From assembly GCA_002238485.1 (NCBI GenBank), contig MPMG01000001.1:62001-126000 (forward strand): a stretch of 64,000 nucleotides of DNA, in the 5' to 3' direction. Both the position numbers and the translations under genes were made by a program. This DNA comes from Chloroflexi bacterium bin20 (lineage in GTDB: Bacteria > Chloroflexota > Anaerolineae > Aggregatilineales > Phototrophicaceae). Below the pieces are notes generated by a model, which saw nothing but the letters and a program-made list of their open reading frames with translations, was not told the origin of the DNA and did not search any database. Positions 2,727-21,226 of this stretch are shown here, one piece after another. The first letter of the stretch is position 1. Every line of letters starts with the position of its first letter.

Positions 2727-3764
2727 TCACTCCCCTAAATCATAAGCCAGCACAGGCATGCCCAGCGACACATGCACTTGGTCGCCGCGCCGAATATAAC
2801 GCTCCACGCCCGTCCAGGCCACCAGCTCTGTGCCATCGCCCAGCGCCAAGCCGACGCGCTGATTGTGCCCGAAGAATTCGCGCCATTGCACTTTGGCGGG
2901 CACGCCAATCTCATCAAGGTGGTCGATATGCAGCGCTTCCGGGCGGATCATGAGACTTACTTCGCCGTTACGCGGGTGATACAGCTTGACTTCTCCCAGA
3001 CGGCTGCGGGCGGTCAAACCCTGCGCCCTCGCCGGCAGCACATTCGCCTTGCCGATGAGCTTCGCCACCTGGATGCTGCTGGGTCGGTTGTAGATGATAT
3101 GCGGGGCTGCCAGTTGCAGCAGACTGCCTTCGTAGATGACGGCAATTTCGTCCGACAAGCTGAGCGCCTCTTCCTGGTCGTGGGTGACAAATATCGCGGT
3201 CGTCTCGGTTTCGCGCAAGATTTGGCGCACATCGTTGCGAATGTGCACGCGCAGATCGCTGTCCAGGTTGGAGAAGGGTTCGTCCAGCAGCAGGACATCG
3301 GGATTGGGCGCCAAGGCCCTGGCCAGCGCCACCCGCTGCTGCTGTCCGCCAGACAATTCATGCGGCATGCGCTCGGCGAATTTTGGCAAGCCGACCATGT
3401 CCAGCATGCGCCGCACTTGCTTGTCGCGCTGCGCCGGGTCTGCTCGCAAGCCAAAGCCGATATTGCCCGCCACATCGACATGCGGGAACAGGGCATAATC
3501 CTGGAATACCATGCCCACCTTGCGCTGTTCTGGGGATACAAAGCGTGAGCTGTCTGCGACCAACTTCGCACCGATCCACACGCTGCCGCTGGTGGGTTTT
3601 TCAAAGCCGGCCAAAAGGCGCAGCATGGTTGTCTTGCCACTGCCGCTGGGTCCCAACAAGGTCAGAAACTCGCCAGCGCGCGCCTGCAAAGAGACCTCGC
3701 GCAGCGCTATGGAGCCATCATCAAAGACTTTGCCCAATTTGTCGGTTTCCAGCGCGAATGCCAT
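2727..3764 (-). CDS. fbpC: Ferric-iron type ABC transporter ATP-binding protein
   Basis: A 345-residue importer ATPase. Walker A is GPSGSGKTT (38-46), followed by the Q-loop Q88, signature LSGGQ (137-141), Walker B LLLDEP and H-loop FVTHD. A C-terminal TOBE/MOI-type domain of about 110 residues is typical of the CUT1/FbpC/PotA group. It is the last gene of a three-gene reverse-strand operon with a fused permease and an FbpA-like binding protein. That context is the main reason for choosing iron over spermidine or sugar. Its stop lies 20 bases from the kinase stop on the other strand. Confidence 0.85.
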   Translation of the reverse strand: MAFALETDKLGKVFDDGSIALREVSLQARAGEFLTLLGPSGSGKTTMLRLLAGFEKPTSGSVWIGAKLVADSSRFVSPEQRKVGMVFQDYALFPHVDVAGNIGFGLRADPAQRDKQVRRMLDMVGLPKFAERMPHELSGGQQQRVALARALAPNPDVLLLDEPFSNLDSDLRVHIRNDVRQILRETETTAIFVTHDQEEALSLSDEIAVIYEGSLLQLAAPHIIYNRPSSIQVAKLIGKANVLPARAQGLTARSRLGEVKLYHPRNGEVSLMIRPEALHIDHLDEIGVPAKVQWREFFGHNQRVGLALGDGTELVAWTGVERYIRRGDQVHVSLGMPVLAYDLGE

Positions 3765-3838: not shown

Positions 3839-5473
3839 TCAGTCCAGGATGTCTTCTTGACGGAGCACGATCAAGAGCACGAAGGCTGATGCCACAATCA
3901 GCGCCAAGCCTGGCAGCGCTATCGTGGACAAGAACGCTTCGTCATAGGCGCTCCAGATGCGCGTGGCAAAGGTGCGAAAACCGATTGGACGCAAGATCAA
4001 CGTGGTAGGCAGCTCTTTCATCACATTCAGGAAGACCAGCGCCATGCCCGCCAGGATGCCGCCCCGCGCCAGGGGCACAGTGATGCGCGCCAGGACAGCC
4101 AGACGCCCCAAGCCCAGGCTGCGCCCGGCTTCCTCGAAGCGCGGATTGATCTGGGCAAAGGCGCTTTCGGTCGCGCCGATGCTCAAGGGCAGATAGCGCA
4201 CGGCATAGCCCAGAATCAGCAAAGGCAAGGTCTGATACAGCGACAGCAGATTCTGCGAGGCAAAAGACACCAGCGCCAGGGCGACAACGATGCCGGGCAG
4301 CACATTGCCAGCATAAGCGATATTGACAAGCCAGCGATTTGCGGGCTTGGCTCGCCGCATCGCCAGCAGCGCCAGGGGCAAAGCCGCCACCGTCACCACA
4401 ATCGCCGCCACCGCACTGACGCCGATGGTGTTGCCTGCCAATAGCGTAAGCGGGATGTGCACAGGGTTGGTCATCTGCCGACCAACCAGCCAGCTGAAGA
4501 GAACGACTATCGGGATGACGACGCCAGCGAGAACCACCCCGCCGCAAAATGCCAGCGCCAGATAGCGCCACTTGCCCAGCCGCACCACTTCCAGCCGGCG
4601 TGATGCGCCGCTGCCTATGCGGAAGTGCAGTCCACGGCCCGCCATGCGAGATTGCATAACCAGCAGCGCCAGCGCCATGACGATCAGCACCAGCGCCAGC
4701 AGCGAGGCTTTGTCCATGCGGAAAGACTCGGTCTGCAAGAAGATGGCGCGTGTGAATGCGTTGTATTGCATCACGGCCACTGCGCCGAAGTCGCTGAGAA
4801 TGTACAGCGCCGCCAAAAGTATGCCAGCCGAAAGCGCCGGGCGCAGCTGGGGCGCCGTGATCTGGCGGAAGACGCCCCAAGGACCTAAACCCAGGCTGTA
4901 GCCCGCTTCTTCCAGGCTGCGGTCGCATTGCAAGATCGCCGAACGCAGCGGCAGAGCGATGTAGGGAAAGGACACCACGCCCAGCGTGAGCGTCGCGCCC
5001 ACGAAGCCCTTGATGCCCGGCAGCCGCTGCACGCCAAATGGCTCGAGCAAGCCCTGCACAATGCCGCGCGGTCCAAATGCTTCGCTGTAGGTGACGGCCA
5101 CCAGGTAGGATGGAATCACCATGGCGGCAAGACCCAGCGCCAGCCACAGTCGCCGTCCGGGCAAATCGCAGCGGGCTGTCAGCCAGGCGAAGGGCACTGC
5201 GATCGCTGTCGCCATGCCAGTCGCCGCCAACATCAGACTTATGCTATTGCCGACGATCAGCAGAGTCCGCGGACGCAGCAGGTAGTCGATGCCCTCCTGG
5301 CCTGCGCCCGCAGCTCGCAACACCAGCAAGCTGATGGGGATCATCACCACCGCGACCACCGCCAAGCCCACCAGCTGTGTGGCTTGCGCAGCGCCAAAAT
5401 GCCAGCGCGACAAGCCCTGTGGGTAGTGCCACTGCGGTCGCAATCGCGGCGGGATGACTTCCGAAAGCTGCAT
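3839..5473 (-). CDS. fbpB: Ferric-iron ABC transporter permease (two fused domains)
   Basis: A 544-residue, highly hydrophobic protein of about 12 membrane segments. It contains two copies of the binding-protein-dependent permease domain, each with an EAA loop: EEAGYSLGLGPWGVFRQITAPQ in the first half and EEAGRSLGLGRLAVLARITVP in the second. The fused two-domain form is characteristic of FbpB/SfuB-type iron permeases. It begins 3 bases after the binding-protein gene and is followed after 74 bases by the ATPase, so the three form one operon. It should form the whole membrane channel without a second permease gene. Confidence 0.88.
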   Translation of the reverse strand: MQLSEVIPPRLRPQWHYPQGLSRWHFGAAQATQLVGLAVVAVVMIPISLLVLRAAGAGQEGIDYLLRPRTLLIVGNSISLMLAATGMATAIAVPFAWLTARCDLPGRRLWLALGLAAMVIPSYLVAVTYSEAFGPRGIVQGLLEPFGVQRLPGIKGFVGATLTLGVVSFPYIALPLRSAILQCDRSLEEAGYSLGLGPWGVFRQITAPQLRPALSAGILLAALYILSDFGAVAVMQYNAFTRAIFLQTESFRMDKASLLALVLIVMALALLVMQSRMAGRGLHFRIGSGASRRLEVVRLGKWRYLALAFCGGVVLAGVVIPIVVLFSWLVGRQMTNPVHIPLTLLAGNTIGVSAVAAIVVTVAALPLALLAMRRAKPANRWLVNIAYAGNVLPGIVVALALVSFASQNLLSLYQTLPLLILGYAVRYLPLSIGATESAFAQINPRFEEAGRSLGLGRLAVLARITVPLARGGILAGMALVFLNVMKELPTTLILRPIGFRTFATRIWSAYDEAFLSTIALPGLALIVASAFVLLIVLRQEDILD

Positions 5474-5476
5474 GGC

Positions 5477-6496
5477 TTAGTCCAGCGCTCCGCTGTTTTC
5501 GATCATCTCCAACGTGCCCTGCAAGTCGGCGAGATCGGACAAGTCGATCTCGGGCACTTCCAGCTCTGCCAGCGACGGCAGGTCAACCGACGGCTCAACT
5601 GACGCAACCAGCGGATACTCGAAAGTGGTTTCGGCAAAATACGATTGCGCCGCGTCGCTCAGCAGGTAGTCGACGAACTGCTGCGCGACTTCCGGCTGGT
5701 CGCTCGTTTGCAGGATGCCTGCGCCAGCCACATTGATCAGCGAGCCGACATCGCCGCCAGGGAAGTAATGCAAAGAAGCTGTGATGTCTGGGTCTTCCGC
5801 CAGGAAGCGGAACAGATAGTAGTGATTGACCAGCCCGACAACCACTTCGCCGTCGATTGTCGCTTGCACAATAGGCGTGTTTTTGGGATAGGCTTGTACA
5901 TCGTTCGCCAGCATGTCCGCCAGCCAAGCCGCTGTCTCGTCTTCGCCCAGCAATTGGCGCATGGCGGTTACATTGGAAACGAAGGACGCATTGGTCGGCG
6001 CCCAGCCCACCAGCCTACTCCAGGCTTCGTCAGTCAAATCGAAGATAGACTCGGGCAATTCCAGTTCGAGCTCCGCCAGCATCTCTGGGTTGTAGACGAG
6101 CACCCTGGCGCGTCCGCTCAGTCCCACCCAGACGCTATCGGGCGAGATGAAAGCCGGGTTTAGGACCAACTCGAGCGTTTCGGCGGGCAATTCAGCCAGC
6201 ATGTCTGCGGCCGCGAGCGCGCCCAGGGCGCCGCCATCCTGCGCGATAAAGACATCGGCGGGGCTGTTTTCGCCCTCGGTGAGGATCTGGTTGGCGACAG
6301 CGTTTGTGCCGCCATACAAGACTTCGACTTCTATGCCCGTGTCTTCGGTGAATTGCGCCATGAGCGGACCGATCAGGCTTTCGTTGCGACCCGAATAAAT
6401 CGTGAGCGGGTCGTGGCTGTCTGCCAGGGCGGGCGCTGTGCCTATGCAGACCAGCGCGACAACCAGGCAAATGACGATACTGCGAACCTTCAACAT
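5477..6496 (-). CDS. fbpA: Iron(III) ABC transporter substrate-binding protein
   Basis: A 339-residue exported protein with a signal peptide (basic MLKVR, a hydrophobic core, then APALA near residue 25). The mature part begins LTIYSGRNE, the typical FbpA opening, and contains the adjacent tyrosines Y226-Y227 in NHYYLFR that coordinate ferric iron in this family. An AAGGAG ribosome site precedes the ATG. It is the first gene of the fbpABC-like operon, and its leader carries two inverted repeats (6520-6541 and 6553-6607). The C-terminal 40 residues are acidic and leucine-rich, longer than usual. Confidence 0.88.
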   Translation of the reverse strand: MLKVRSIVICLVVALVCIGTAPALADSHDPLTIYSGRNESLIGPLMAQFTEDTGIEVEVLYGGTNAVANQILTEGENSPADVFIAQDGGALGALAAADMLAELPAETLELVLNPAFISPDSVWVGLSGRARVLVYNPEMLAELELELPESIFDLTDEAWSRLVGWAPTNASFVSNVTAMRQLLGEDETAAWLADMLANDVQAYPKNTPIVQATIDGEVVVGLVNHYYLFRFLAEDPDITASLHYFPGGDVGSLINVAGAGILQTSDQPEVAQQFVDYLLSDAAQSYFAETTFEYPLVASVEPSVDLPSLAELEVPEIDLSDLADLQGTLEMIENSGALD

Positions 6497-6805: not shown

Positions 6806-7279
6806 ATGTCCAACTGGTGGGGCTCGCGGAAGAATGTCTCGTCGCGGCTGGTGTGGGAAGTCGAGGCGATGAAAGCTGCGTTTGGCTCGACATTTCGGCT
6901 GGTTGTGCCACCATTTGGCGGTCTGCTCTATTGGCAGGGCTCGGTCGAGATCAACATGAGCATCCTGGACTCGCCTTTTCACAACCTAAAAATTGTCTAT
7001 CCCAAGGAATATCCCAACCGTCCTGCCGAAGCCTACTGCGTCAAACCGCGCATTTACAGCGAAAAGCACCAATACGAAGACGGGCAGCTTTGCCTGTTTA
7101 ATCCCAAAGATGGCGAGCAGTACGGCTGGAATCCCAGCAAGTCGACCGCGGTGACCGTGGGTGGCTGGGCGATACAATGGCTTTATGCCTATTACACTTG
7201 GCGCTCCACCGGCAAGTGGCCCGGCATTGAAGAGCGCATCAAAGCCAGCACACCCCTGCCGCGCCGCCGGAGACGCTAA
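6806..7279 (+). CDS. Prokaryotic E2-like ubiquitin-conjugating enzyme
   Basis: A 157-residue protein with the hallmarks of stand-alone bacterial E2 (UBC-fold) proteins. A proline-rich strand YPKEYPNRPAEAYC (65-78) corresponds to the E2 YPxxPP region. Then comes H88 and the active-site segment EDGQLCLF with C96 as presumed thioester cysteine, and the C-terminal helix YTWRSTGKWPG (130-140). It ends in five arginines. The ATG at 6806 follows AGG and GGGGAG. The JAB gene follows after 2 bases and then an E1 gene, so conjugation chemistry is strongly implied. The modifier and targets are unknown. Confidence 0.85.
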   Translation: MSNWWGSRKNVSSRLVWEVEAMKAAFGSTFRLVVPPFGGLLYWQGSVEINMSILDSPFHNLKIVYPKEYPNRPAEAYCVKPRIYSEKHQYEDGQLCLFNPKDGEQYGWNPSKSTAVTVGGWAIQWLYAYYTWRSTGKWPGIEERIKASTPLPRRRRR

Positions 7280-7281
7280 CC

Positions 7282-8511
7282 ATGCGAGCCGCTGATGAGC
7301 CCGAGTTGCTTGGCATTCTGCGAGGCGAGTATGACCATATCCGCAAGCGGCTGCGAGGCATGGCGATGATCTCGCGCGGCATCGTGCCCAATTTGGTGCT
7401 GTCTCGGCGCGCAGTCGAACGCATGCTGCTGGCTGCCAGTCAATATGTCGCCGACGAAACGGGCGAGGCTATGGTCGGCTTCGTCGTCGACGATGCCACG
7501 CCCGAAGGCAAACCGACGATCTATGTGCTGGATACCATCTCGCCAGACGAAACAGCTGTGCGCCGCTCGCACACGTTTCAGCAGGGCGACGCGCTGCAAG
7601 ACGAAGTCATCTGGTGGCTGCAAGAAAACTGGCACTATCACCGACATCAGCACCGCGGCACAGCCTTGCTGCCAGAGCGCTTTGATGTGCCGCTGCGTTA
7701 TCTGGGCGATTGGCACAAACAGCCTGGCTCCATGATCCAGCCCAGCCACGGCGATCTGATGACAGCGCTTGCCTGGCTGGACGACGATGAATCGGGCTTG
7801 GACTTTTTGCTGGTGCCTATCGTCACAACCGGGCACACAGCGGTCGTCGGCGCATCCGATGTCGATGTCAATTATTTTCACCAGCCAATGACAGACGGCA
7901 CAGATATGCGCGTCGACTGGTGGTACATTCACCGCGATGTGCGCGTTTTCCAGCCGGTGAGCCCGGAGATCGTCGCGCCTGAAACCCTGCCGCAGATGAT
8001 GAAATACGGCTGGCATGTGGTGCTGGCTGATCGACTGACCAGCGAGCACTATGCGCTGGAAGACGATGGCTTGCTTGTGCGAACCCTTTTCTATGAGTGC
8101 GATGGCGAGGTGCCGCTGGAGTTCTGCTTCATCGCCATTCGGCAGGGCGCGTCGTCTTTTATGCTGCTGGTTACGCAGCACGATTATCCGCAAAGCCCGC
8201 CACGCGCCTACCATGCGCCCTTCGTTGCCGGCATCGACCTCATGGACCCGGTCGCGACATTCGAGACTCTGTGGGCGATTGCCGAGCCGATCGTCGAGCC
8301 AGCGGATTGGTCTTGGTCACCAGAGAAATATTTGCTGGATTTTGTCGTTGCGATCGAGATTGAAGCGGGCCTTCGTGAGCCAGAACGCATCAGCATTCCC
8401 GTCATTGACGACATACCGGGGGGCAGGCCCACAGACGGCGCATCGGCGGCGAGCGCAGGGAGACAACCGAAGAAGCCAGCCAATGAAGCCGAGGCAATCG
8501 AACATGAGTAA
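7282..8511 (+). CDS. JAB/MPN-domain protein with degenerate metal site and C-terminal E2/RWD-like domain
   Basis: A 409-residue protein. Residues about 35-190 form a JAB/MPN (JAMM) domain: E62 in GEAMVG, then GDWHKQPGSMIQPSHGD with H145 and D158 in exact H-x-H-x10-D spacing. The second histidine is Q147 (codon CAG). JAB proteins in bacterial ubiquitin-like operons act as peptidases that trim or remove modifiers; loss of one zinc ligand makes activity doubtful. Residues about 225-375 include HDYPQSPPRAYH, resembling the proline-rich strand of E2/RWD folds, without an evident catalytic cysteine. The last 35 residues are disordered. It overlaps the E1 gene by 8 bases. Confidence 0.75.
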   Translation: MRAADEPELLGILRGEYDHIRKRLRGMAMISRGIVPNLVLSRRAVERMLLAASQYVADETGEAMVGFVVDDATPEGKPTIYVLDTISPDETAVRRSHTFQQGDALQDEVIWWLQENWHYHRHQHRGTALLPERFDVPLRYLGDWHKQPGSMIQPSHGDLMTALAWLDDDESGLDFLLVPIVTTGHTAVVGASDVDVNYFHQPMTDGTDMRVDWWYIHRDVRVFQPVSPEIVAPETLPQMMKYGWHVVLADRLTSEHYALEDDGLLVRTLFYECDGEVPLEFCFIAIRQGASSFMLLVTQHDYPQSPPRAYHAPFVAGIDLMDPVATFETLWAIAEPIVEPADWSWSPEKYLLDFVVAIEIEAGLREPERISIPVIDDIPGGRPTDGASAASAGRQPKKPANEAEAIEHE

Positions 8512-9430
8512 CATGTGGGAACGGGTGGGGCGTTTGATCGGCGCAGACAACCTCGATCGCCTGGCAGAAAAACAGGTTGGCGTGGTTGGCTTGGGCTCGG
8601 GCGGCGGATTCGTCGCGCTCAGCCTGGCGATGTGTGGCGTGGGCGGCTTCGTGTTGGTGGACGACGATGTGCTGGAGCGCGGTAATGTCACGCGACATGT
8701 GGCCGACCTGCGCAGCCTGGGGCAAAACAAAGCGGCGGCGGTGGCGGATTTGATCTGGCAGCGCAATCCCGATGCGCGGATCGATGTGCGCGCCGGCGCT
8801 ATCGAAGACCACTGGGATTGCCTGGACGCGATCGACTTGCTGGTTGTGGCAGTCGACAACGAACAAGTCAAGTACACGATCAACGAGAAATGCCTGGAGA
8901 AGCGCTTGATCGCCTCGTATGCTGGCGTGTACGAACGCGGCGAAGGCGGCGACCATGTCATCATCAAGCCCTATGCCGGTCCCTGCTATGCCTGCTGGGC
9001 AGAAGCCACCCGCGAAGGCGTCAAAATCGCCATGAACTCCGTGGGCGATCTGGATTATGGCATGATCGGCGCAGAAGGCACTTTGGCGTCCGAACCGGGG
9101 CTGTGGGTCAATGTCACCAAAGTGGCCGGCATTCAGACCGATCTCATTCTGAATGAATTGCTGCGCGGCACAGCTGCCTATGCCGAAATGCCCGCCAACA
9201 CGTTGATCGTCAGCAATACCTACCTGGATATCATTGAAGGCGCAGAAAGCGACCCGCACAGCGGTCTGTGGATCGAAATCGAGCGCGATCCGGATTGCCT
9301 GGTCTGTGGCGAACGATTGCAAACAGGCGTCAGTCTGCTGGCGCGTGACGAAAATGCCAGCATCTCATTGGAAGACTTGGCAGCTTCGCGATTGACCACC
9401 GATATCGTTATAGAAGAAGCCGAAGATTAA
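8504..9430 (+). CDS. E1-like (ThiF/MoeB family) ATP-dependent activating enzyme
   Basis: A 308-residue E1-like adenylating enzyme. The nucleotide loop GLGSGGG (29-35), the DDDVLERGNVTRH segment with N61 and R64, and VVAVDN with D118 match ThiF/MoeB. Two zinc pairs are present: C161/C164 and C265/C268. The remaining cysteines (C44, C106, C130) all precede the first pair, so the usual crossover-loop catalytic cysteine is not visible. The ATG at 8504 overlaps the JAB stop, showing tight coupling. The downstream opposite-strand gene overlaps the stop by 4 bases. Expected role: C-terminal adenylation of a modifier encoded elsewhere. Confidence 0.9.
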   Translation: MSNMWERVGRLIGADNLDRLAEKQVGVVGLGSGGGFVALSLAMCGVGGFVLVDDDVLERGNVTRHVADLRSLGQNKAAAVADLIWQRNPDARIDVRAGAIEDHWDCLDAIDLLVVAVDNEQVKYTINEKCLEKRLIASYAGVYERGEGGDHVIIKPYAGPCYACWAEATREGVKIAMNSVGDLDYGMIGAEGTLASEPGLWVNVTKVAGIQTDLILNELLRGTAAYAEMPANTLIVSNTYLDIIEGAESDPHSGLWIEIERDPDCLVCGERLQTGVSLLARDENASISLEDLAASRLTTDIVIEEAED

Positions 9431-9978
9431 CCGCGCTCTTGCTGCCGACGCCATTGGTCGGCGATTTCTTGCAGTTTCTCGCGCAGCTTCAGCCGCTCTC
9501 TCACTGTGAAAATCGCCTGAAAGAGCAGCTGGTCGCATTCGCCCGGCGGTTGTCCCATGTCTTCGTAATACAGCTGGAATCCGTCGGTGATATTGTGGCG
9601 GAAGGCGCCCGGGTCAAAGACCGGCGCGCGGTAGGGCAATACGCGGATGCCTACGCTCAGTACGATGTCGTCGCCGGCATGATGCGTCCAAAGGCCCAGG
9701 ATGCGCAGCTGCTGATAGCCGTGATAACCCTTGTTGTGATACCAAATGACGACCCCCGACCAGGCCGCGCCACGCATCGTTTTTGGTCCGTGGCAGAGAA
9801 TGCGCTTGTATTCTCGCAGGACCAGGTCGGACCATGTGTCAAAGGCATTGAGCAGATTCAGCGCTTGATCGTGGGGGCGCGCTGGCTTCTTCTGCGGGCG
9901 GGGGCTGCCAAAAGGACGCCGCGCGGCGATGCGGGCAAGGATATCCTGGTAGCGATCATCGGCGGGCTGGTTTGGCAA
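9427..9978 (-). CDS. Hypothetical protein convergent with the E1 gene
   Basis: A 183-residue protein that I do not recognise. The TTG start at 9978 follows GGAG and TGAGG, 4 bases after the stop of the acetyltransferase gene, so it is probably co-transcribed with that gene. The N-terminal 35 residues are basic and proline-rich. The middle is rich in aromatic residues (WYHNKGYHGYQQL), and a charged coiled helix closes the protein (about 150-183). There is no signal peptide or membrane segment. It ends in RG, not the GG of ubiquitin-like modifiers. Confidence 0.7.
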   Translation of the reverse strand: MPNQPADDRYQDILARIAARRPFGSPRPQKKPARPHDQALNLLNAFDTWSDLVLREYKRILCHGPKTMRGAAWSGVVIWYHNKGYHGYQQLRILGLWTHHAGDDIVLSVGIRVLPYRAPVFDPGAFRHNITDGFQLYYEDMGQPPGECDQLLFQAIFTVRERLKLREKLQEIADQWRRQQERG

Positions 9979-20199: not shown

Positions 20200-20445
20200 A
20201 TGAGCGACGAAAACATCAACCGAAACGACGATATTGAAAACGGTGACGGTGATAACCTGGATGACCGCCTGGAGCGCTTGGGTGGAGAACCAGCGCCTGC
20301 TATAACGCCAGAGGAATTCGAACGACTGCAAAAGGCGGGCCAAGTCCACATCGACTCGCGTGGACGCGTGCGCACAGCAAGGCGCAGCGGGGCAGAAGCG
20401 GGTGTGTCATTGCGCAAACGCCGTGCATGGTATGGCGAGGCTTGA
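20200..20445 (+). CDS. Small acidic/basic hypothetical protein
   Basis: An 81-residue soluble protein preceded by GAGGGG and a good promoter. The first 25 residues are acidic and Asn/Asp-rich. A helix follows (ITPEEFERLQKAGQVHIDSRGRVRTA), and the C-terminus is basic (RRSGAEAGVSLRKRRAW). The helix-turn segment superficially resembles antitoxin or small DNA-binding proteins, but no toxin gene is adjacent. I do not recognise a family. Confidence 0.65.
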   Translation: MSDENINRNDDIENGDGDNLDDRLERLGGEPAPAITPEEFERLQKAGQVHIDSRGRVRTARRSGAEAGVSLRKRRAWYGEA

Positions 20446-20575: not shown

Positions 20576-21226
20576 GTGTCTAAGAGCATAAATTTCTATG
20601 ACTTGCGCCGGGCGCTGCAGCTGGACAGCATGGATGCACAGGCAGCGCAGCGGCGGATGGCGCCGGCGCCGCGCGGCTGGGAAGAGCGCGCTGGACCTCC
20701 AAAGCAGGCGGCGGTCATGATCCTCGTCTTTGAAGATGCAGCTGGTCGCTTGCATTCGGTACTAACCCTGCGCAATGCTGAATTGCGCGGTCACAGCGGA
20801 CAAGTCAGCTTCCCTGGTGGAGGCGCGGAGCCTGGCGACAAGGACGCGCTGCACACTGCCCTGCGCGAAACTGTCGAAGAGATCGGCGTCTGTGCGGCGC
20901 GCGTGCAGCCCCTGGGTCTGCTCTCGAAGCTCTACATCCCCGCCTCGCATTACGATGTAGCGCCGGTGGTGGCGCGCTACGATGGCGTGCCTTCCTTCTC
21001 GCCAAACGCTCAGGAAGTCGCGGAATTATTCACTTTCGCGCTAGACGACCTGCTGCGCCCCGAGCTCAAGGCGGAAGAGCGGCGGCTCATTCGTGGCGTG
21101 GATGTGCACGTCCCATACTACGCCATAAACCGCCACAAAGTCTGGGGAGCGACCGCCATCATGCTCAGCGAGCTGGAAGGGCGCCTCTTGCAAGCCAGAC
21201 AAATCGTCACTCGCGAGGCGGGCTAA
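20576..21226 (+). CDS. NUDIX hydrolase, CoA pyrophosphatase-like (NudL type)
   Basis: A 216-residue protein from a GTG start. VLTLRNAELRGHSGQVSFPGGG matches the coenzyme-A NUDIX signature (LLTxRS..LR.H.GQV.FPGG). The NUDIX box ends RETVEEIGV with the metal-binding glutamates. This subgroup hydrolyses CoA or oxidised CoA to 4'-phosphopantetheine and adenosine 3',5'-bisphosphate. The EamA transporter gene begins 6 bases later, so they form an operon. Confidence 0.9.
   Translation: MSKSINFYDLRRALQLDSMDAQAAQRRMAPAPRGWEERAGPPKQAAVMILVFEDAAGRLHSVLTLRNAELRGHSGQVSFPGGGAEPGDKDALHTALRETVEEIGVCAARVQPLGLLSKLYIPASHYDVAPVVARYDGVPSFSPNAQEVAELFTFALDDLLRPELKAEERRLIRGVDVHVPYYAINRHKVWGATAIMLSELEGRLLQARQIVTREAG

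Follow-up and report, generated by a model that had tools for sequence, protein, structure and literature searches.

Genes for a stand-alone E2, a JAB-type protein and an E1-like adenylating enzyme lie together in a 64,000-nucleotide stretch of the genome of Chloroflexi bacterium bin20 (contig MPMG01000001.1; hereafter the window). Here we report that these three genes belong with a fourth, encoding a small protein termed A1, and that the cassette is a core trait of one order rather than a mobile island, because it is near-universal there and rare elsewhere in the phylum. Its inheritance has apparently been vertical, and the order is probably Aggregatilineales of Anaerolineae, judging from the names and taxonomy of the A1 homologues. 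Tentatively, with confidence just short of even, we propose that the four proteins constitute an order-wide conjugation pathway whose activated partner is A1, with trimming and activation probably at Tyr78. The ubiquitin-like systems described from bacteria are for the most part patchy operons, often linked to defence, whereas the present cassette is found almost throughout an order and its partner appears to be neither a ubiquitin nor a defence enzyme.

A cassette with a fourth gene

On the forward strand of the window, the genes for E2 (157 residues, 6806–7279), the JAB/MPN metalloprotease-like protein (JAB; 409 residues, 7282–8511) and the E1/ThiF-type adenylating enzyme (E1; 308 residues, 8504–9430) follow one another with a 2-base gap and then an 8-base overlap. 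Coordinates and spacing are as the original prediction gave them for this tightly coupled triad, and its assignments are upheld by our profile and structure comparisons. Among 66 compared loci (L001 being the window, and a few organisms being represented twice), the triad keeps one order in 64, and E1 and E2 are separate genes in 64; in both counts the remaining two loci are cut by contig ends. A small reading frame, A1, lies directly 3′ of E1 in all 23 distant loci (L044–L066, of which L051 is cut by a contig end) and in none of the other 43, 30 of which are only about 4 kb long. The A1 profile located the window genome's own copy at contig C15:82221–82436, corresponding to window positions 20221–20436; the full frame (81 residues, 20200–20445) lies on the same strand as the triad, 10.8 kb downstream. 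The earlier description of the cassette as modifier-less stands in part but misleads: no ubiquitin gene lies alongside, but the operon of most relatives outside the genus encodes this fourth small protein. Nor is A1 literally the ubiquitin-fold gene in most relatives' operons that would have spoken against the prediction, as it has no predicted ubiquitin fold in a model of low confidence.

Outside the genus, 98 genomes carry both E2 and A1. Eighty of these show operon spacing, defined from coordinates alone as the same strand with 1.2–2.7 kb from the end of E2 to the start of A1; in two more the genes lie within 3.4 kb, in one A1 is 152 kb off and in 15 E2 and A1 are on different contigs. By contrast, none of the 32 genus members with both genes has them adjacent. 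In 25 they share a contig and a strand at 10.9–36 kb apart (usually 10.9–14.9 kb after E2, with one at 36 kb), and in seven they are on different contigs. Of 87 A1 loci, which comprise repeats and many short ones, 66 have a NUDIX match, and in every one of these the NUDIX gene lies no more than 3 kb beyond A1, on its strand. The 21 loci with no match include four long ones (L058, L059, L062 and L064). The window keeps the A1–NUDIX pair (NUDIX hydrolase, 20576–21226, forward strand), and the break therefore fell between E1 and A1: in the window's genus A1 is separated from the cassette, not lost. A protein-isoaspartate methyltransferase gene also lies after A1 in L044 (9336–10664, by Pfam) and, by clustering, in L059 and L062.

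E2 and JAB share one distribution among 61 genomes (that of the window plus 60 relatives): both are present in the same 53, among them every one of the 34 genus members. The A1 profile finds one copy in 50 of the 61. Across the order, E2 and A1 are each present in 135 of 154 genomes, and the cassette is almost always single-copy; both occur in 130 genomes, neither in 14, E2 only in five (G013, G028, G036, G478 and G506) and A1 only in five (G474, G479, G502, G518 and G523). Eight of the ten mismatches fit cut operons because contig ends fall there: the contig ends inside the operon in G036, G474, G478, G502 and G506, and the A1 match starts at base 968 (G479), 131 (G518) or 1093 (G523) of its contig, leaving no room for E2. 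In G013 and G028 the expected place of A1, by the distance typical of the genus, lies at or beyond the contig edge, and a true absence is possible. In an even draw of 400 phylum genomes, E2 matched in seven, namely the window genome, one member of its family and five distant genomes (1e-6 to 1e-15), and A1 matched in two, the window genome and another member of the family, in a search that scored no more than 12 candidates for each genome. E2 identity is 90–100% within the genus, mostly 61–87% in the rest of the order and 50% for the full-length match that diverges most; JAB drifts faster, with 29–53% best-segment identity in L044–L066.

This distribution bears on the explanation that the cassette is a phage-defence system of the cyclic-oligonucleotide-based anti-phage signalling system (CBASS), Bil or Bub kind that has lost its effector. 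PADLOC, a defence-only library, does match E2, JAB and E1. However, a near-universal, almost always single-copy cassette is unlike patchy defence islands, the flanking genes read contain no CD-NTase (nucleotidyltransferase) or effector beside the cassette, and the best NCBIfam matches of E1 are of the ThiF/UbaA/MoeB types, all of which leaves this the least probable of the explanations that we considered.

Predicted activities of the three enzymes

Profile searches placed the three proteins in the families predicted for them (E2, PADLOC, 3.3e-15; JAB, PADLOC, 5.5e-7; E1, ThiF adenylation domain, PF00899, 1e-27). Against Pfam UQ_con, E2 scores 0.033, below the cut-off; against solved E2s it matches 'L3A2-1' at 1e-6 and UBE2L3 at 9.5e-6. 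Its putative active-site Cys96 (codon 7091–7093) and His88, at the C−8 position, are invariant in all 25 aligned sequences, and its C-terminal tail is Arg-rich. By these features, the first gene encodes a UBC-family E2 with an active-site cysteine.

JAB has no Pfam match and no sequence match in the PDB, and its MPN fold rests on the PADLOC match and on an AlphaFold model (mean predicted local distance difference test (pLDDT) 82, predicted template modelling (pTM) score 0.75) that matches BRCC36 and Rpn11 chains; at least a fifth of the VIA rows for JAB span residues 24–237 only. Residues E59, H145, S155 and D158 are kept in the 26 and 37 sequences of two alignments. The window JAB lacks the complete E...HxH...SxxD JAMM motif, its second His being replaced by Q147 (HxQ instead of HxH); this replacement is found in 24 of 26 aligned sequences, the other two, both distant members (L053 and L056), having HxH. 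The matching structures include a BRCC36 complex labelled 'QSQ mutant'. The C-terminal domain of JAB (residues about 244–365; 8011–8376, forward strand) is predicted to consist of a helix, four strands and two helices with a YP...P motif, an order of elements that fits an RWD/inactive-E2-like domain, and a sequence-profile comparison of this domain with the E2 family gave no match.

E1 contains two zinc-type CxxC pairs, C161/C164 and C265/C268. At the position of the catalytic Cys of the genome's own MoeZ, six aligned family members have Ala, Glu, Lys, Arg, Leu or Val, and among 28 sequences no conserved Cys lies outside the CxxC pairs; judged by its sequence, E1 lacks a catalytic cysteine. 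MccB is among its PDB matches, and the resemblance of a Cys-less E1 to MccB-type adenylation, together with the NUDIX gene that follows A1 in 66 of the 87 A1 loci, would suit a route in which A1 is made into a modified peptide or small molecule, with the NUDIX protein taking part and no protein being tagged. Yet such a route has no need of an invariant-Cys E2 or an isopeptidase-type JAB, the NUDIX match is absent from the four long loci named above, and the end of A1 is near-invariant, unlike most precursor cores. We consider this route highly improbable.

A1 as a putative activated partner

A1 is built of an acidic start, a 57-residue conserved core ending in KRRAWY (Tyr78, codon 20431–20433) and, in the window, the tail GEA. 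The start is Lys-poor and rich in Asp and Glu, as well as in Pro in most homologues other than that of the window, and is apparently disordered. The core is identical in 21 of the 22 genus members examined (22 of the 32 with A1, window included), and two of its amino-acid positions vary within the genus. At the DNA level, 56 of the 57 core codons vary there, at nine first, one second and 55 of 57 third positions. Because the codons vary while the core protein stays nearly identical, A1 is a real gene under strong selection.

The end of the core was analysed in the best 120 of 1622 database homologues with E up to 0.01. All 120 end the core in K-R-R-A-W-Y. The entropy is 0 at the Tyr and 3.15 bits one residue further on, and the tails measure 0–9 residues (1–3 in 108). 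The fetched loci contain 47 distinct forms, 46 with the end KRRAWY and one, from L066, with RRRAWY; 31 of the 46 distinct tails with a stop have 1–3 residues, and lengths of 0–29 are seen overall. At the sequence level, conservation stops sharply at the Tyr, and tail length is not strictly bounded; the idea that the tail is always very short was dropped, as tails of 10–29 residues occur. As a rough control on smaller alignments, the C termini of E2 and E1 show a less sharp end of conservation. A1 has no C-terminal diglycine and no Pfam match, and its PDB matches are at chance level only. Its AlphaFold model, of low confidence (pLDDT 66.7, pTM 0.33), predicts short helices and a hairpin and no beta-grasp. 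An internal RLERLGGE in A1 (window 20266–20289) recalls the ubiquitin tail RLRGG, and cleavage there may be an alternative.

In the proposed scheme, which we regard as the most economical, E1, E2, JAB and A1 would form a chromosomal, vertically inherited ubiquitin-type conjugation pathway. The A1 tail after Tyr78 would be removed first, with JAB as the candidate trimmer; the Cys-less E1 would then adenylate the trimmed C terminus at the Tyr; activated A1 would pass directly from the adenylate to Cys96 of E2; E2 would transfer it to a target; and JAB, with its inactive-E2-like domain, would trim or reverse the product. The four genes belong together; everything beyond this (A1 as the activated partner, trimming, direct transfer, conjugation and the target) is our inference. 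The original prediction had suggested that the triad modifies a protein encoded elsewhere or uses an effector protein as the modifier; that a different kind of protein, presumably A1, acts as modifier now seems the best-supported part of that suggestion. The most specific form of the proposal, in which the modifier is a disordered, non-beta-grasp peptide, matured behind KRRAWY and Tyr-activated by a Cys-less E1 in a near-universal housekeeping system, is a possibility that we hold with more reserve.

Several observations weigh against this pathway. HxQ could impair the window JAB, mutants of the QSQ type being reportedly inactive. The co-occurrence of E2 and A1 (Fisher's test, 4e-12) does not represent many independent events, because 12 of the 14 double absences sit in three families. 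The A1 core ends in Tyr rather than in Gly or Ala, so a thioester with E2 there would be unusual. Furthermore, some tails in the fetched loci are long (four of 10 residues and three of 16, 22 and 29), so the sharp end of conservation may mark the plain end of a binding motif; our estimate is not altered by them, as trimming and a plain motif end accommodate long tails equally well. Finally, A1 could be a target or an adaptor.

The chief rival explanation builds on this last point: A1 would be a dedicated substrate, adaptor or regulator, such as an E3-like or E2-binding peptide, and the modifier an unlinked, unrecognised protein. With its acidic start, its basic core and the short helix-hairpin predicted for it, A1 has features typical of a binding peptide, and the conserved Tyr end and the tails of 10–29 residues suit this explanation too. 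By contrast, the constraint on A1 ends exactly at one residue, and searches with PF00240, for which the controls also fell below the cut-off, and with ThiS found no other free ubiquitin-like candidate tracking the triad. We regard the adaptor or substrate role as somewhat unlikely.

The genome-wide search for a ubiquitin-fold protein came back empty, with no PF00240 match at E up to 1, although this search was weak: in 14 control genomes it gave five weak matches, none over the cut-off. A ThiS-like search of the genome (E up to 1) gave four matches, of which three passed the cut-off; by eye, the matches include a MoaD–MoaE fusion, a ThiS-like protein belonging to its own JAB/MoeZ set and part of a RelA-like protein. 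The second of these, a ThiS/MoaD-like protein (genome G000, contig C15:860868–861152) ending in IAGGLD, might be borrowed by the cassette as its modifier, since that search showed no other free protein of beta-grasp type with such a GG-type end. However, it adjoins its own E1 and its own JAB: the one other over-threshold ThiF protein of the genome, a rhodanese-fused MoeZ type, lies beside it with a canonical JAB. Its presence also fails to follow the triad, as it occurs in 57 of the 61 genomes, including five of the eight without the triad, and matches only weakly (3e-4 to 2e-7) in four triad-bearing genomes of family f3. We therefore rejected it as the cassette's modifier, and a borrowed ThiS-like protein is in our view highly improbable. 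The locus (L160; C15:859602–861642) is a separate set of the sulfur-carrier-like kind, made up of genes for the ThiS/MoaD-like protein, the rhodanese-bearing E1 of MoeZ type and a JAB with canonical HSHP.

Should A1 be conjugated, the substrate range of E1/E2 enzymes would widen to a disordered peptide with a Tyr end, and the pathway would be a housekeeping one, accessible in cultivated members of the order such as Aggregatilinea lenta and Phototrophicus methaneseepsis; if A1 is instead a target or an adaptor, a conserved substrate of a bacterial E1/E2/JAB set is at hand. Either way, what E2 carries becomes a directly testable question.

Surroundings and comparison with known systems

The immediate neighbours of the cassette in the window are an ABC (ATP-binding cassette) importer, an unnamed gene and a GNAT gene, and neither a defence gene nor a modifier of the beta-grasp kind was seen adjoining it, in agreement with the predicted absence of an adjacent ubiquitin or defence effector. 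The importer comprises a solute-binding protein encoded divergently from the cassette (5477–6496, reverse strand), a permease (3839–5473) and, by eye, an ATPase (2727–3764). The unnamed gene (183 residues, 9427–9978, reverse strand) is convergent with E1 and occupies the place that A1 has in relatives; the window protein scans gave it no family match, and 12 of the 13 loci closest to the window (L031–L043) have a homologue called at the corresponding position. Upstream of E2, many distant loci encode one to three proteins that by eye are membrane-anchored and beta-rich (for example L066:3136–5739); these genes are not in the window, and the three tested had no convincing Pfam match. Elsewhere in the genome, two proteasome-beta-like proteins (L161, C4:369551–370036; L162, C15:412117–412314) match PF00227, L161 alone over the cut-off, and each lies near a gene that is DUF4065-like by eye, a possible paired system.

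The titles and abstracts retrieved from an open-licence library, which lacks most subscription papers, include no description of the cassette or of A1. We compared the cassette with better-known systems. Pup, the tag of actinobacterial pupylation, ends in GGE or GGQ, and its ligase is glutamine-synthetase-like. A1 resembles Pup as a small, apparently disordered protein that may serve as a tag, but it is linked to an E1/E2 pair, and its end is KRRAWY plus a tail in place of GGE or GGQ. Bil and Bub have separate E1, E2 and JAB genes and a ubiquitin-like modifier; in the present cassette the small gene after E1 encodes A1, for which the predicted fold has low confidence. PMC13373217 counts both Bil and Bub among immune operons, known or putative.

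Within the phylum, two loci of another Chloroflexota family (L135 and L136) encode a related E1 (about 32% identity), an E2 and a JAB, but differ in that the JAMM motif is HxH by eye and no A1 was found in those genomes or stretches. They are surrounded by membrane proteins that are RWD-like by eye, and L135 also has an SPFH/band-7-like protein. Distant E2 genes in L137, L138, L139, L140 and L141 lie beside nucleotidyltransferase-like genes and are CBASS-like by eye.

Among the types 6a–6e of Iyer et al. (2006), E1, E2 and JAB are linked as here, inactive E2/RWD-like domains occur and the distribution is reported as sporadic, according to PMC1779556. Type 6d is described there with a beta-grasp protein that ends in Gly and with a JAB whose extra domain is N-terminal; in the present cassette, the extra domain of JAB is C-terminal and the partner is A1. 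In type II CBASS, as set out in PMC10097602, Cap2 conjugates a partner (cGAS) that has neither a beta-grasp fold nor a GG end and that terminates in Gly or Ala. The precedent of Cap2 and Cap3 shows that neither a beta-grasp fold nor GG is required of the partner of such enzymes, and the present cassette shares with them predicted E1 and E2 activities, a JAB and a putative partner with no predicted beta-grasp fold. Unlike type II CBASS, it has E1 and E2 as separate proteins, an E1 that lacks a catalytic Cys and no nucleotidyltransferase seen alongside, and it belongs to the core of an order rather than being sporadic.

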